DNA from: Stagnihabitans tardus
GTDB lineage: Bacteria > Pseudomonadota > Alphaproteobacteria > Rhodobacterales > Rhodobacteraceae
Assembly: GCF_009925085.1 (NCBI RefSeq)
Contig: NZ_JAABNR010000011.1
Location: forward strand, 62,001 to 126,000
Length of the DNA: 64,000 bases
Direction of reading: 5' to 3'
Part shown: positions 7,264 to 60,913 of the stretch, piece after piece
Layout: every line of letters starts with the position of its first letter
Position numbering within the stretch: the stretch's first letter is position 1
Translations under genes and position numbers: made by a program
The notes under the pieces: model-generated
The model's input: only the letters and a program-made list of their open reading frames with translations
Database searches by the model: none
What the model was told of the DNA's origin: nothing

Positions 7264-8607
7264 ATGTCGCATGGAGCCGCCACCCCGATGACCTCCCGCA
7301 AGGCCGGCCCGCTGAAGGGCACGGCCTCGGTCCCGGGCGACAAGTCGATCAGCCACCGGTCCTTGATCTTCGGCGCCATGTCGATCGGCACGACCAAGGT
7401 GACGGGGCTGCTGGAGGGCCAGGACGTGCTGGACACGGCCAAGGCCATGCGGGCCTTTGGCGCCACGGTGACGCAGCACGGGCCGGGCGATTGGTCGGTG
7501 GAGGGCGTGGGCGTCGGCAACTTTGTCGAGCCCGCCGATGTCATCGACTGCGGCAATTCGGGCACCGGGGTGCGGCTGATCATGGGGACCATGGCGACCT
7601 CTCCGATCACGGCGACCTTCACGGGGGATGCCTCGCTCCGCAAGCGGCCGATGGGTCGGGTGACGGAACCCTTGGCGGAGTTCGGGACCATGGCCTATGG
7701 CCGCAAGGGGGGCCGTCTGCCGATGACGGTGGTGGGGGCCTCGGATGCGAAGGGGATCCGCCACACGCTGAAGGTCGCCTCGGCCCAGGTGAAATCGGCC
7801 ATCCTTCTGGCGGGTCTGAATGCCAGCGGCGAGACCGTGGTGATCGAAAAGGAACCGACCCGCGACCATTCCGAGCGGATGCTCGTGGGTTTCGGCGCCA
7901 ACCTGACGGTGGACAAGACCAAGGAGGGCCATGTGATCACGTTGCAAGGGCGGCCGTCCTTGCGCGCCCAGACCGTGGCCGTGCCGCGTGACCCGTCGTC
8001 GGCCGCCTTCCCGGTCTGCGCGGCGCTGATCGTCGAGGGCTCGGACATCTTCGTCCCCGGCGTCTCCCAGAACCTGACTCGCAACGGGCTTTACATCACG
8101 CTCGTCGAGATGGGCGCCGAGATCGAGTTCCAGAACCCCCGCGAAGAAGGCGGCGAGCCGGTCGCCGATCTGCGGGTGAAGTTCTCGGGCAATATGAAGG
8201 GCATCGAGGTCCCGCCCGAACGCGCGCCCTCGATGATCGACGAATACCCGATCCTGTCGGTCGTGGCCTCTTTCGCCACCGGAAAGACCGTGATGCGGGG
8301 CGTCAAGGAACTGCGCGTCAAGGAAAGCGACCGCATCGACGCCATGGCGCGGGGGCTCGAGGCCTGCGGCGTCACGATCGAAGAGGATGAGGATACGCTG
8401 ATCGTCCATGGCATGGGCCCGGGCGGCATGCCGGGCGGGGCCACCGCCAAGACCCATATCGACCACCGGATCGCCATGTCCTTCCTCGTGGCCGGCATGG
8501 CCTCGCAGCAGCCCATTTCGGTGGACGACGCCTCGCCCATCGCGACCTCTTTCCCGATCTTCGAGAGCCTGATGACCGGGCTTGGCGCCACCCTGACGCA
8601 AGGATGA
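7264..8607 (+). CDS. aroA: 3-phosphoshikimate 1-carboxyvinyltransferase (EPSP synthase)
   Basis: A 447-residue enzyme that joins shikimate-3-phosphate and phosphoenolpyruvate in aromatic amino-acid synthesis. '[15 protein letters not shown]', '[16 protein letters not shown]', '[14 protein letters not shown]' and '[14 protein letters not shown]' are the active-site segments. Overall it is closer to the class II (CP4-like) pattern, but the phosphate-binding loop reads '[13 protein letters not shown]', with Gly where CP4 has Ala. The open frame extends far upstream; the ATG at 7264 is preferred because it begins the conserved N-terminus. The stop overlaps the cmk start by 4 bases, so the two genes are coupled. 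Confidence 0.95.
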
Positions 8608-9191
8608 GCTTTACCGTCGCCATCGACGGCCCGGCTGCGGCGGGCAAGGGCACGATCAGCCGCGCGGTGGCGGCGGAGTTCGGCTTTGCGCATCTGGACA
8701 CCGGGCTCCTCTACCGCGCCGTGGGGGCCAAGGGCGGGGATCCGGTGCAAGCCGCCCTGACCCTGACGCCCCAGGATCTGGCGCGTGACGACCTGCGCAG
8801 CATGGCGGCGGGGCAGGCGGCGAGCCGTGTCGCCGTGATCCCAGAGGTCCGCGCCGCGCTGACCGCCTTCCAGCGCCGCTTTGCCGCGCAGGAGCCCGGC
8901 GCCGTGCTGGATGGCCGCGACATCGGAACGGTGATCTGCCCCGGGGCGGAGGTAAAGCTTTACGTCACCGCCAGCGCAGAGGTCCGCGCCCATCGCCGCT
9001 GGCTGGAGCTGGGCGGCGACGCGGCCCGCGTCCTGGCCGAGGTGCGCGAGCGCGACGACCGCGACATGAACCGCGCCGAGGCCCCTTTGCGGCCCGCCGA
9101 GGATGCCGTGGTCATCGACACCTCAGAGCTGGACATCGACCAGGCCGTGGCCCTGGCCTTCGAGGTCATCCGTCAGCGCCTCTCGAACTGA
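8604..9191 (+). CDS. cmk: Cytidylate kinase
   Basis: A 195-residue nucleoside monophosphate kinase that turns CMP/dCMP into the diphosphates. The P-loop is '[12 protein letters not shown]', the CMP-binding region '[12 protein letters not shown]', and '[20 protein letters not shown]' and '[13 protein letters not shown]' form the lid. It is slightly shorter than the E. coli enzyme. It starts inside the aroA stop. Its 3' end overlaps the convergent glycosyltransferase gene by 19 bases. In many relatives rpsA follows directly; here rpsA is 15.6 kb away. Confidence 0.93.
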
Positions 9192-55477: not shown

Positions 55478-56650
55478 ATGACGGATGCACAACTTTACAA
55501 CTTCGACCTGGTGCACGGTAAACACCAGAAGGACATCGTCGTCCTGGTGGTCGACCTCGTGAATTCCAGTTCCCTTAGGTCGCATGCCGATGCCACGACC
55601 TGGCGGGCACAGTACGACAACTGCATGCCGGTGATCCTTGCCGTGGTCACAAGGTACAATGGTCGCGTGGTCAAGTTCCCGGGCGACGGGTTCCCGTTCG
55701 CCTTCCCGCCCTTTGAACGTGATCCCGAAGACGATGCCCTGCGGGCCGCTGTGGCGATCCAGAGAGAACTCGATAAGCTGCGCGAAGAGCGCGAGATCGA
55801 CGCGAAGATGCAGGTCCGGGTCTCTGCCGGCATCGTCAACGCGAGCGTCGTGAACTGGAAAGTGGGCGTGGTCGAGGGGGGGAGGACTATGTCGGCGAGG
55901 AAGTCGACGCGGTCTTCCGCCTCAATTCGGTGATTGCTCCCAATGGAATCATCATCAACACGGCGATGAACGGCGACATCAAGTGGCGCTTCATGAGCCG
56001 GGAATTGGGCCTGATTTCCGACGATGCCGGCAATCTGACCAAGTTCCTGGGGCGGCTCTCCCTGAAGGGCTTGCCGCCGACCCCGGCCTATGAGGTGGGA
56101 TGGACCTCCCGGTTCTTCGGCCAACGCGGCCCAGACACAGGGCAAGCGCGACGGTTGGTGGGGCCCATGTGCCGGTGCCGTCCAACTTCACGCAAACGGG
56201 GGCTGGCTTCGCAACCCTCACCAGCTTGGCCGAGACCACCATGGTTGGCCATTGCAAGGCATTCAACGCGGCGGGGAACTCCGCCTGGATCCAGCGTCAC
56301 AACCCCGAGAAGGAGCAGATGATCTGCGTCTTCGCTAACTTCGTCCGCGGGGGACCCCTTATATTGGGGAGGTCGTCTGTTTCGTCGCCAAGCCCGGACA
56401 GCCGCACAAGAAGGCCATGCAGGTCATTCGCGGGGGCACCACGCTGCAGGGCGAAGTCCGGCAAGTGGATGGCCTCGTCAAGGTCAAGGTCGACGAATAT
56501 GCGGCACGTGAGCATGGTCCCTTCACCGTTGAAATGGGTGGGGCCAAGGTCAAGGTCGGTGACCGGGTGGAGTTCGTGCTGCACTTCGTCCACGACGGGG
56601 AAGGCACCTGGCGCCCCATCGGCAAGGACGGGCGGGTCGTGGTCTCCTGA
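55478..56650 (+). pseudogene. Class III nucleotide cyclase (PycC-like), three G-run frameshifts
   Basis: The ATG at 55478 has GGGGAG upstream. Frame 1 gives the cyclase N-terminus: 'DIVVLVVDLVNSSSLRSHAD' (metal Asp) and 'YNGRVVKFPGDGFPFAFPPF' (second Asp). Adding one G at 55876-55882 continues with 'GEDYVGEEVDAVFRLNSVIA', the class III dimer/base-binding segment. Adding one G near 56140-56142 continues into 'GGAHVPVPSNFTQTGAGFAT'. Adding one at 56349-56353 gives 'RGGTPYIGEVVCFVAKPGQP' and runs to the stop at 56650. About 390 residues result: a cyclase domain and an unknown C-terminal domain. The adjacent DUF5706-like gene suggests a Pycsar pyrimidine cyclase. The uncorrected gene would give a truncated product. 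Confidence 0.7.
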
Positions 56651-57168
56651 GGCGGAATGAGGGCTCCTCTCCGCGGGGTTTCGCGGGGAGGACGCCAGGC
56701 CTGGATCTGCAGGTAATCGACCAGGGCAGTGAGGGCGAGGCCCAAGAGCAGGAAATGGATGGCGCGTCCGACCAGCTCGTGCGTGGTCTTGGCAAAGCCC
56801 GCGCAGGCGTGGATCGCGGCGAGGAGGTCCGTCGTGGGGACTAGAAAACCCTGGGCTGCCATGGCCTTGCGGTAGTCATCGAGGGTCCTGTCCAGGATGT
56901 GTCCGAAATAGATGAAGCCGGCCGGACCCCCGGAGCGGGGGGCCACGACCATCAGGCAGCAAAAGAGGGCTGCCAGGAGGGCGAAGCCGGGGGCAATGAG
57001 GGCCGGGGTCAGGTAGCTGGCCCTTCCGCTGCCCATGAGGGCCGCGCCGACCGAGAGGAGGGCCAGGCAGACGACGGCGGCGGCCTTGGTTTCGGCGGTC
57101 TTGATCCAGTCGAGCTGGAGTTGGAGGAGCCATTCCAGGTGTTCGTGGGGGTCTCGGGTCGGGGGCAT
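56359..57168 (-). CDS. DUF5706/PycTM-like membrane effector of a Pycsar-type system
   Basis: From the ATG at 57168 the product starts 'MPPTRDPHEHLEWLLQLQLD'. 'WIKTAETKAAAVVCLALLSV' joins an N-terminal amphipathic helix to membrane helix 1, 'LIAPGFALLAALFCCLMVVA' is helix 2, and 'GGPAGFIYFGHILDRTLDDY' and 'IHACAGFAKTTHELVGRAIH' lead to a third helix 'FLLLGLALTALVDYLQ'. This is the layout I know for DUF5706, the PycTM effector of Pycsar antiphage defence. The first about 175 residues are family-like. The remaining about 95 are Pro/Thr/Ser-rich and antisense to the cyclase C-terminus, so the true stop may have been lost. Confidence 0.7.
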   Translation of the reverse strand: MPPTRDPHEHLEWLLQLQLDWIKTAETKAAAVVCLALLSVGAALMGSGRASYLTPALIAPGFALLAALFCCLMVVAPRSGGPAGFIYFGHILDRTLDDYRKAMAAQGFLVPTTDLLAAIHACAGFAKTTHELVGRAIHFLLLGLALTALVDYLQIQAWRPPRETPRRGALIPPQETTTRPSLPMGRQVPSPSWTKCSTNSTRSPTLTLAPPISTVKGPCSRAAYSSTLTLTRPSTCRTSPCSVVPPRMTCMAFLCGCPGLATKQTTSPI

Positions 57169-57322
57169 GGCGGGCCTGTCTGAGGGTTGCTCGGCGGAGT
57201 CAGGGGCTCTTGCACGTGTGCAAGAGGGGGCAAGGCTCGGATAATACACGGTTTTCGTTTTTTTGTTAGGGTTTTGTTAAGGGCTTGCGCGGGTGGCGTG
57301 AGGACCGATTTGAGGCGCGATG

Positions 57323-57346
57323 CGCCCGCGAAAGCTTTCGCGGGCG
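57323..57346. repeat. Perfect 24-base palindrome, copy 1
   Basis: CGCCCGCGAAAG / CTTTCGCGGGCG. Identical copy at 57527-57550, 204 bases downstream, within a longer direct repeat. Confidence 0.85.
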
Positions 57347-57465
57347 GGGCGGTGGGCGTGGGTGGGGTGGGCCGTGGGGTGCTCGGGTGGGGGATAGCGT
57401 AGCCCCGTAGCCCGGGGGGCACCCCGGGGGTGGGTGGAGCGGTTGCGGTTTTTGGGGTTCGGACC

Positions 57466-57518
57466 GACCCCATGGCCCTTGGGCCATGGGGTCAAATCGG
57501 TCCAGTGGACCGATTTGA
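57466..57518. repeat. Two overlapping perfect hairpins
   Basis: GACCCCATGGCCC-TT-GGGCCATGGGGTC (57466-57493) is followed, sharing two bases, by TCAAATCGGTCCA-G-TGGACCGATTTGA (57492-57518). Both have 13-base perfect arms. Confidence 0.85.
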
Positions 57519-57526
57519 GGTCCGAA

Positions 57527-57550
57527 CGCCCGCGAAAGCTTTCGCGGGCG
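57527..57550. repeat. Perfect 24-base palindrome, copy 2
   Basis: Same sequence as 57323-57346. Confidence 0.85.
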
Positions 57551-58044
57551 GGGCGGTGGGCGCGGGTGGGGTGGGCCGTGGGGTGATCGGGTGGGGGGTA
57601 GCGTAGCCCGGGGCCGTGGCCTCGGGGTTGGGTAGAGCGGTTGCGCTCGTCTGGTCGAGGTCCCGGGTCAAGCCCGGGACGGTGGGGGGAGAGGTTTGGG
57701 GTTTTGTGGTAGTTTGGCGTCGGTCGGGCGGTTAAACCCGGGGCCACTGGCCCCGGGCTACGAGGTGCGCTTTGTGCGTGAGCGGGAGGGTGAGTTCCAG
57801 CTTCCAGATTAGACCCGATGAAGAACTAGTCGATCGCGCTGCCCATGGGTGAGCCCTATTACTCGATCCCCCTGGATTTGCGATAGGACGCGTGATTTCT
57901 CGCACTATGCCTAGTTGAATTGGCGGGCGCTGCAGGGCGGTTGCGGTGTTTGAATTCACGCACAACTATCTCGGTGAGTAGTGGCCGCGCGAGCGCGCGC
58001 AGTATTGACACATCTGGTAGCTCGCAGTGAATTCAACTGTTCGC

Positions 58045-59067
58045 TTAGCCGGGTAGATTGTCAATAACCCAAGAAGTCAGCGCTGCAAGCTTCTTTCCGA
58101 TTGATCCAATCGAGTCAGAAGCTTTGTCGATGCTCTCCAATGCCTTCCGTTTGCTCTCAAGTCGCTCCAAGATAGTGTTCTTGTTGGATCCCGCCATTTC
58201 GACTGGAAGCGCATCTAGCGCTTCCTGCTGCAAGAGCGTGTTTACCTTCGCAAGTTGAGCAAGGAACTCAACTCTGGGGTCATTCGTGGACATATCGCTA
58301 GCTACGATATCAAACGATGAGAGGCGATTGAATCTGTTGTCGCCACATGTGCAAGGTACGCGGGCGCAGATTGGGCAGCCTCTCAAGTATCTGCGTTGAA
58401 ACGCTTCTGTAGGACTGAATGTTGGTCTGCCCTCTGAGCTAAGGCGCCAAACAGCCAAAATCCATGCGAGAAGCGACAGAACATGATCGGTCAGTGCCTC
58501 TCGGGAAGCATCGTTATCCTTTTTGCACATTTCGTGAGAAAGGCGCCCCAAGCAACGCAGAACATCGGTAAAGATTGAGTCCCTGTTATACTGGTGCCTC
58601 GTGTCATTTCTGCTGTAAATTCGAGCTAGCATTTCGGAAACTTGGTCAAGCGTCGGGGGCTCTGAAATATAAGGGATTCGTCCCGACTTTCCTGTGTGGG
58701 CTCCACTAAGAATTGAGTTGATAATCGCATTGCCCCTGGAAATTCGCTCTTCCCTTGCTCGCCAAATTGGTACCTCTCGCGGTGCGCCGCCGCTTGGCTT
58801 GCAGATGCACACGGGCTCGAGGCAGCGATAGCATTGATTTGGGTAACGCAGCAGAATTTCTTGCCAGAAACTTTTGCGAGCCTTGGAGAAAATCGCAATT
58901 GACCACGCCACAATCTCTACAAACGGGTCATCGTGCACCGTTCCTGCAAGGTGGTTTGTTACCACCACCCCAGTATTGGCCGAAATCCGGTTGACCATGA
59001 ACTGAACAGGAATATCTGCATTCGGGTAAATGCTAGCGAGTTGGCGTTGCATTTCATCGAGGTTCAT
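58045..59067 (-). CDS. Unknown two-module protein with CxxC..CxC knuckles, lower G+C
   Basis: A 340-residue protein; GGGAGA lies 8 bases before the ATG. Two related modules are visible. Residues about 1-95 end 'ILLRYPNQCYRCLEPVCICK'. Residues about 130-245 end 'AFQRRYLRGCPICARVPCTC'. Each is mostly helical with an Asp/Trp-containing helix before the Cys knuckle ('DPFVEIVAWSIAIFSKARKS' and 'DHVLSLLAWILAVWRLSSEG'), a pattern that reminds me of MazG-like pyrophosphohydrolase-fold proteins. The last 90 residues form a likely coiled coil ('ILERLESKRKALESIDKASD'). There is no signal peptide. The DNA is about 42% G+C in 58561-58620, so it was acquired. No family name can be given. Confidence 0.75.
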   Translation of the reverse strand: MNLDEMQRQLASIYPNADIPVQFMVNRISANTGVVVTNHLAGTVHDDPFVEIVAWSIAIFSKARKSFWQEILLRYPNQCYRCLEPVCICKPSGGAPREVPIWRAREERISRGNAIINSILSGAHTGKSGRIPYISEPPTLDQVSEMLARIYSRNDTRHQYNRDSIFTDVLRCLGRLSHEMCKKDNDASREALTDHVLSLLAWILAVWRLSSEGRPTFSPTEAFQRRYLRGCPICARVPCTCGDNRFNRLSSFDIVASDMSTNDPRVEFLAQLAKVNTLLQQEALDALPVEMAGSNKNTILERLESKRKALESIDKASDSIGSIGKKLAALTSWVIDNLPG

Positions 59068-59113
59068 AGTTGTTTTCTCCCAATTGAAGTTAGCGCCAAG
59101 GCCGCCTTACCCC

Positions 59114-60913
<1,800 letters not shown>

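Follow-up and report, generated by a model that had tools for sequence, protein, structure and literature searches.

Known systems close to the protein discussed here include the MazG proteins (Pfam PF03819) and the dimeric all-alpha dUTPases. PMC2954211 gives the metal ligands of 1vmg and 1w2y, those of the Campylobacter jejuni dUTPase being E46, E49, E74 and D77, and refers to work in which the dimeric dUTPases are proposed to have arisen from MazG-like ancestors by duplication. MazG domains have also been predicted to act in defence, and in PMC13092281 the candidates of this type are listed as predictions that were neither tested nor validated there.

Here we compare with these enzymes a gene from a window of 64,000 nucleotides of Stagnihabitans tardus (contig NZ_JAABNR010000011.1), the window being the whole stretch of DNA that was analysed. 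Its product appears to combine the tandem fold of these enzymes with a metal site in which every ligand has been replaced, and the gene lies at a site where related genomes carry other short foreign genes.

A foreign gene directly behind lepA

The gene and its flank are arranged as follows.

58045..59067, minus strand: gene for the tandem MazG-like protein, 340 codons, ATG start, intact frame
59068..59113, minus strand: junction of 46 bp between the lepA stop and the gene start
59114..60913, minus strand: lepA (EF4), the conserved flank of the slot

The gene is on the same strand as lepA and starts 46 bp past the lepA stop, with its ATG preceded by GGGAGAAAACAACT, a plausible ribosome-binding site. 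It has a G+C content of 51% and a GC3 of 53%, compared with 64% and 90% for the adjacent lepA, and the bin at 58001-59000 has the lowest G+C (50.7%) of the 64 1-kb bins in the window. The gene is of foreign origin, and these values bear out the horizontal acquisition proposed in an initial annotation of the locus. The low G+C reported there was also correct, although the line counts of 42% and 75% used to illustrate it were extremes. The neighboring LepA is 88.1-89.8% identical to LepA of Paracoccus, Pseudorhodobacter and Cereibacter, whereas its identity to that of Sinorhizobium is about 78%, which suggests a host from the Paracoccaceae.

When searched alone, the protein gave no significant match in Pfam, NCBIfam, PADLOC, PHROGs or the PDB sequences. 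Hits to Methyltransf_28 (E 0.091), steroid receptor RNA activator (E 0.25) and a Streptomyces plasmid (E 0.3) were judged to be due to chance. A tblastn search of phage records returned one match, to the 8 kb Vibrio filamentous phage PQ189347.1, covering residues 3-334 with an E value of 2e-13; because a phage protein aligns over this range, the ORF is more than a chance reading frame.

Two MazG-like modules with cysteine knuckles

The protein can be divided into two modules and a C-terminal region.

58792..59067, minus strand: module 1, residues 1-92, a MazG-like unit with knuckle
58801..58833, minus strand: knuckle 1, C79-x2-C82...C87-x-C89
58339..58656, minus strand: module 2, residues 138-243, MazG-like, acid-bearing in relatives
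58345..58377, minus strand: knuckle 2, C231-P-x-C234...C239-x-C241
58048..58338, minus strand: C-terminal helical region, residues 244-340

On the basis of its sequence we assign the protein to an unnamed family whose members have two MazG units, each with a C-x2-C...C-x-C knuckle. The two helical modules with four-cysteine knuckles described in the initial annotation are present (C79, C82, C87 and C89; C231, C234, C239 and C241). Most members of the family also have a helical C-terminus, which is missing in two short members (L020 and L222). A transmembrane C-terminus was considered and rejected, as the mean hydropathy of the best 19-residue stretch within the final 30 residues does not exceed about 1 in any member.

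The window protein belongs by descent to the MazG or all-alpha NTP pyrophosphatase superfamily. Profile-profile comparison, which had been suggested as a check, was run with hhalign against L021, a single-module archaeal MazG of 96 amino acids from a Thermococci MAG that carries the same knuckle and scores 53 bits to Pfam MazG. The family profile of module 1 matched L021 end to end at 99.44 and that of module 2 matched over most of the length of L021 at 99.06, both profiles including the window protein, while the two module profiles matched each other at 97.4. Taken alone, the window modules matched L021 at 92.5 (module 2) and 65.8 (module 1). The Pfam MazG cut-off of 22 bits is passed by module 2 of the Vibrio phage protein, at 26.7 bits, as well as by L015, L020 and L021. 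The P1-type protein scores under it, at 14.7 bits, the window protein has no PF03819 match over the curated cut-off, and two members from the window's own bacterial family (L226 and L227) match no Pfam family at E 0.001.

The AlphaFold2 model of the window protein has a pLDDT of 69.4 and contains helices in both modules. Its C-terminus is mostly below 50, and in this region of low confidence a long helix is modelled at residues 296-337. A whole-chain fold search with this model gave talin and other helix bundles as the best matches, with E. coli MazG (3cra) at rank 50 (E 4, Z 5.0), and it was replaced by a search with the two-module core of the relative L015, for which AlphaFold2 gave a pLDDT of 86.6 and a pTM of 0.87. 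Module 1 of L015 superposes on the Sulfolobus MazG 1vmg at 1.2 Å over 77 residues (Z 7.3), and the L015 core superposes on the trypanosome dimeric dUTPase 4dk4 at 3.2 Å over 139 residues (Z 8.1). The unrelated talin R7R8 reaches Z 8.3, so these values support the fold rather than prove it, and Foldseek found no match to the L015 core with E below 0.9. Taking the hhalign profiles together with the superposition of module 1 of L015 on 1vmg, we regard the MazG-type all-alpha fold that had been proposed for both modules as close to certain.

Family members and their surroundings

The statement in the initial annotation that no known family has this architecture is correct for the curated libraries searched, but relatives do exist and RefSeq names the P1-type one 'MazG-like family protein' (WP_000944483.1). 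A tblastn search of plasmids matched 17 E. coli plasmids (E 1e-7), two of which were inspected and are typed IncY with phage-type genes nearby; we take IncY plasmids to be P1-like. Across 5,426 E. coli genomes the gene occurs in 19, with all 19 places on plasmids. A profile scan of viral contigs recovered P1-type copies and variants, and scans of viral contigs with the window protein or P0001 alone recovered no relative. In the Vibrio phage PQ189347.1 the family gene lies between the 'gene 1 protein' gene and a putative regulator.

Among cellular genomes, the profile scan of contigs gave seven loci (L015-L021). None of 60 relatives carries a family gene by single-sequence search, nor does any of 384 other genomes of the class. 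The 397 other genomes of the phylum contain no full-length member and two partial MazG matches, and the 389 other genomes of the order contain two full-length members and one partial, all three in the window's own bacterial family. In two genomes of that bacterial family the members lie in low-G+C DNA. In the bacterial family of the Aliivibrio genome that carries L015, 247 genomes contain two full-length members (that genome included) and four partial ones.

The genes surrounding these members are varied. In one member from the Aliivibrio family (L221) the gene sits between a packaging ATPase and a major head protein, which we read as a tailless-type prophage; the packaging ATPase is split over two overlapping ORFs (L221:7038-7711). 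The Aliivibrio sifiae member (L015) is flanked by two copies (7787-7859 and 8957-9029) of a 73-nt repeat that occurs 19 times. In our reading these copies are attC sites of an integron, and the array also carries a TIR protein and a GmrSD/NsnA-type gene. By eye, a GmrSD-type and HEPN-type pair in this array (L015:2185-3937) resembles a pair behind lepA in another genome (L057:3303-4797); GmrSD_N was confirmed in L015, and one protein each from the lepA site matches GmrSD_N and HEPN_MAE_28990. The gene before the family member in L016 matches CBASS-type HNH effectors, and in L227 a set of three genes, with ABC-3C components and an LmuB-like ATPase, follows downstream of the family gene, on a contig that also carries a Rep3 replication gene.

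Other surroundings relate to nucleotide metabolism. In a Melioribacter MAG (L018:7470-9056) a dCMP/cytidine-deaminase domain (PF00383, E 3.1e-13) is fused to the tandem MazG, and this protein is possibly a one-gene dCTP-depleting defence enzyme. A short form in a Staskawiczbacteria MAG (L020) lies near genes for dCTP deaminase, dUTPase and ThyX, and a second short form in the same genome (L222) lies beside a NUDIX gene. The fusion and these neighbors together hint that the ancestral substrates were pyrimidine deoxynucleotides. In a Clostridia member the last four bases of the family gene overlap an ORF of 120 amino acids (L019:8966-9328), which looks membrane-anchored by eye and matches nothing in Pfam or PADLOC.

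Replacement of the metal ligands

The key difference between the window protein and its relatives lies in module 2.

58474..58557, minus strand: erased metal site, residues 172, 175, 195 and 198 being C, R, H and S in place of E, E, E and D

In a joint alignment the E-x2-E...E-x2-D motif is kept in module 2 of 14 out of 14 other members, some of which are close P1-type variants, and it is also kept in L226 and L227. The family sequence is E-E-x2-E followed by E-x2-D, while the window protein has R171, C172, R175, D194, H195 and S198. The E-E-x2-E...E-x2-D pattern is absent by eye from module 1 of every aligned member. A total of 18 columns are invariant in 15 other members (the partial L032 being left out), and the window protein keeps nine of these, namely the eight cysteines and Y151. 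The nine lost are R30, Y81, P152 and the six active-site acids, one of which depends on the alignment, as another alignment pairs E179 of the window protein with that acid. When each of the other members was left out in turn, none lost more than two invariant columns.

Because the search profiles came mainly from intact sequences, site-less relatives are possibly under-sampled. In a tree built without L032 and without the deaminase part of L018, the end branch of the window protein has a length of 4.07 compared with a median of 0.94, a value that carries a long-branch warning and goes with an unsure placement.

Since every metal ligand in the only acid-bearing module of the family is replaced, the nucleotide depletion or signal clearing suggested originally is unsupported for this protein as a canonical enzyme. 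Canonical catalysis has very probably been lost. Judged from the aligned residues, the window protein is probably a pseudoenzyme.

The site behind lepA

Directly behind lepA, the window's bacterial family has a cargo slot with varied genes, of which several belong to defence or toxin types. To describe it we examined 97 of 135 genomes with lepA, leaving out 38, and added 13 further, giving 110 loci of which 14 are from the window's own genus besides the window itself. Six loci with less than 600 bases downstream were dropped, and the remaining 104 comprise the window (junction 59068-59113) and others within the sets L038-L059, L061, L076-L102 and L133-L192. The G+C content of the first 600 bases behind lepA was compared with that of the lepA 3′ end. 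A drop of at least 10 points was found in 50 of the 104 loci of the window's bacterial family, the window gene being one of the 50, and 54 loci had no such drop.

As a control we used one gene, recA, for which 22 genomes of the family were matched and 17 had a locus that was measured; the drop was found at none of the 17. It was also found at none of 57 stretches located 1.5-2.1 kb behind lepA, and among the 16 genomes for which both loci were available, 12 had it at lepA and none at recA. A sharp junction at the lepA stop is partly expected anyway from the divergence of intergenic DNA. Four named Paracoccaceae records outside the 104 loci have no drop behind lepA, and the two annotated records among these four name no defence gene there.

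The G+C content recovers within the stretch examined in 39 of the 50 loci, after a median of 950 bases, roughly the length of one gene. In 49 loci low-G+C ORFs could be called, and the first of these is codirectional with lepA in 35 and starts within 60 bases of the lepA stop in 23. Matches of the 60 slot ORFs, among the 25 commonest of 36 families, include FRG, SLFN_AlbA_2, Panacea, HNH, SLATT_5, Fic, GmrSD_N, HEPN_MAE_28990, TIR_2 and AAA_21; among the 25 commonest of 113 families in a second set they include a UG13a-type reverse transcriptase, SoFic, NsnA, PD-T4-2_A and several PADLOC candidates. In the near relative G001, whose LepA is 98% identical, the slot is occupied by a different gene of 251 amino acids that is SLATT-like by eye. 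The defence-like setting claimed for the window gene is thus supported by what related genomes carry at this site. No consistent repeat of the lepA 3′ end was found at the far side of the inserts, so we claim no mechanism of integration, and a search of open-licence papers found no publication on the slot.

The nearby Pycsar-like pair

PADLOC identifies a PycC-type gene at 55478-55933 (E 8.5e-9) and a PycTM-type gene at 56359-57249 (E 1.1e-17), the latter with 36.4 bits to Pfam PycTM. The frame of the PycC-like cyclase breaks near a run of seven G at 55876-55882 and its continuation is open in another frame; the break could be either real or a sequencing error. Two parts (57302-57391 and 57455-57599) of the G+C-rich, repeat-like spacer that separates this pair from the MazG-like gene match overlapping places in G001.

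The initial annotation placed the MazG-like gene beside this pair, and the two are indeed adjacent. The window is, however, collinear with G001 up to 55175 and again from 57302, and the pair is absent from G001, which indicates a separate insertion. The MazG-like gene is on the opposite strand to the cyclase and is not part of the Pycsar cyclase-effector unit. Repeated pairing with Pycsar, which had also been raised, was not found, as no Pycsar neighbor of other members was recognized by eye among the gene contexts listed.

Proposed function and alternatives

We propose that the gene encodes an inactivated member of the tandem MazG family, carried as single-gene cargo behind lepA, which acts as a nucleotide-binding but non-cleaving sensor or decoy in an antiphage response, and we give this reading a probability of about 0.5. 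The chain would contain two MazG units, of which module 1 is acid-free and module 2 has a magnesium site in relatives, with zinc probably bound in the knuckles. Active relatives probably cut dNTPs, perhaps pyrimidine ones, to dNMP and PPi during conflict with phage, an activity that fits carriage by phages and the link to a deaminase. With the magnesium site gone and the paired fold and both knuckles kept, the window protein is most likely still able to bind a nucleotide or a partner but not to cleave it, though binding itself could be gone, since R30, Y81 and P152 are lost as well. As a guess at the output step, the bound state might be passed on to the C-terminal helical region. The protein would serve as a sensor, decoy or competitor in the antiphage response.

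A role in conflict is supported by the locations of relatives, which are found on phages and phage-plasmids, within an integron-type array or next to genes of defence type. We consider a defence role of the window protein likely and the sensor or decoy mode tentative; no phage-plating test of any family member was found in the literature searched. A wider version is doubtful but worth stating: enzymes of the MazG and dimeric dUTPase type may have been turned into non-cleaving nucleotide sensors in phage defence, the window protein reading a phage-induced change in dNTPs or modified nucleotides and its C-terminal helix triggering the response, as one item of a large defence slot of Paracoccaceae-type bacteria that holds a single gene behind lepA and in which no integrase was seen.

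The same features could be left by a decaying former enzyme, whose site was lost as the gene was no longer selected and whose ORF would be a passenger that is being lost. This would suit the longest end branch of the family tree, the loss of the most constrained acids, a highest identity to any member of only 23% and the lack of another member in the 60 relatives and 384 other genomes of the class. On the other hand the 340-codon frame is intact and has a plausible ribosome-binding site, and the eight cysteines are kept along with Y14, W55, P76, N154 and P232 at about 20% identity. One would not expect these residues to survive random decay, and we consider this explanation unlikely. It is also conceivable that the protein is still a hydrolase with a changed substrate and a site rebuilt from C172, H178, D194 and H195, for example for zinc or manganese. 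The replacements do include cysteine and histidine, able to bind metal and located in the same segments, but R171 and R175 place positive charge at the former acids and no member with an intermediate site is found among those aligned, and we judge such a rebuilt site to be improbable.

Two further explanations give the protein a partner. As a subunit or regulator of another host enzyme it might pair, for instance, with a host MazG and have no role in defence. MazG-type units are described in PMC2954211 as pairing within or between chains, and the genome contains three other Pfam MazG matches over the cut-off, but a gene that is rare (0 of 60 relatives) and located in a variable slot suits cargo more than a housekeeping partner, and the chance of this arrangement seems to us small. 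The remaining explanation, a cyclic-nucleotide binder serving as third component of the Pycsar-like system, draws on closeness to the pair with its PycC-like and PycTM-like PADLOC matches, and a non-catalytic nucleotide-binding fold would suit a cNMP sink or sensor. It is highly improbable given that the pair is missing from G001, whose lepA slot carries another gene, that the two insertions are separated by about 0.8 kb of G+C-rich spacer, part of which G001 shares, that the assembly has the cyclase ORF out of frame, and that no Pycsar neighbor of other members was recognized by eye in the contexts listed.

The family provides a compact test set, in which members that appear active, from P1-like phage-plasmids and a filamentous phage, can be set against the natural site-less window version in its defence-type slot. 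Should both kinds protect, the function would be binding and not cutting. The slot itself, which has short foreign genes in roughly half of the related genomes that were sampled, is a place to seek unknown defence genes.

Comparison with known systems

The window family resembles the MazG proteins of PF03819, such as 1vmg and L021, in that its module profiles align with L021, knuckle included; the window protein differs in having two modules, an extra C-terminal region and no metal ligands. The dimeric all-alpha dUTPases (4dk4/1ogk and Campylobacter 1w2y) have two MazG-like halves per chain, like the tandem units seen by sequence in the window family, and a single E-x2-E...E-x2-D site, and here the window protein is distinguished by its knuckles, its C-terminal region and the erased metal site. 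The iMazG of Vibrio DAT722 (2q73 and 2q5z, both among the structure matches) shares the MazG fold but is a single module; it presumably comes from an integron array, like the integron-borne L015. A nucleotide-cleaning fold also serves as a sensor in the Kongming defence, where fold and genes are unrelated and the likeness is one of analogy only. Further counterparts are WP_000944483.1 of the IncY plasmids and XLL20512.1 of Vibrio phage 10N.286.54.E11_PE002A, which have the same tandem architecture, the same knuckles and a similar length (330 amino acids) at 20-25% identity, and which, unlike the window protein, have kept the metal site intact.
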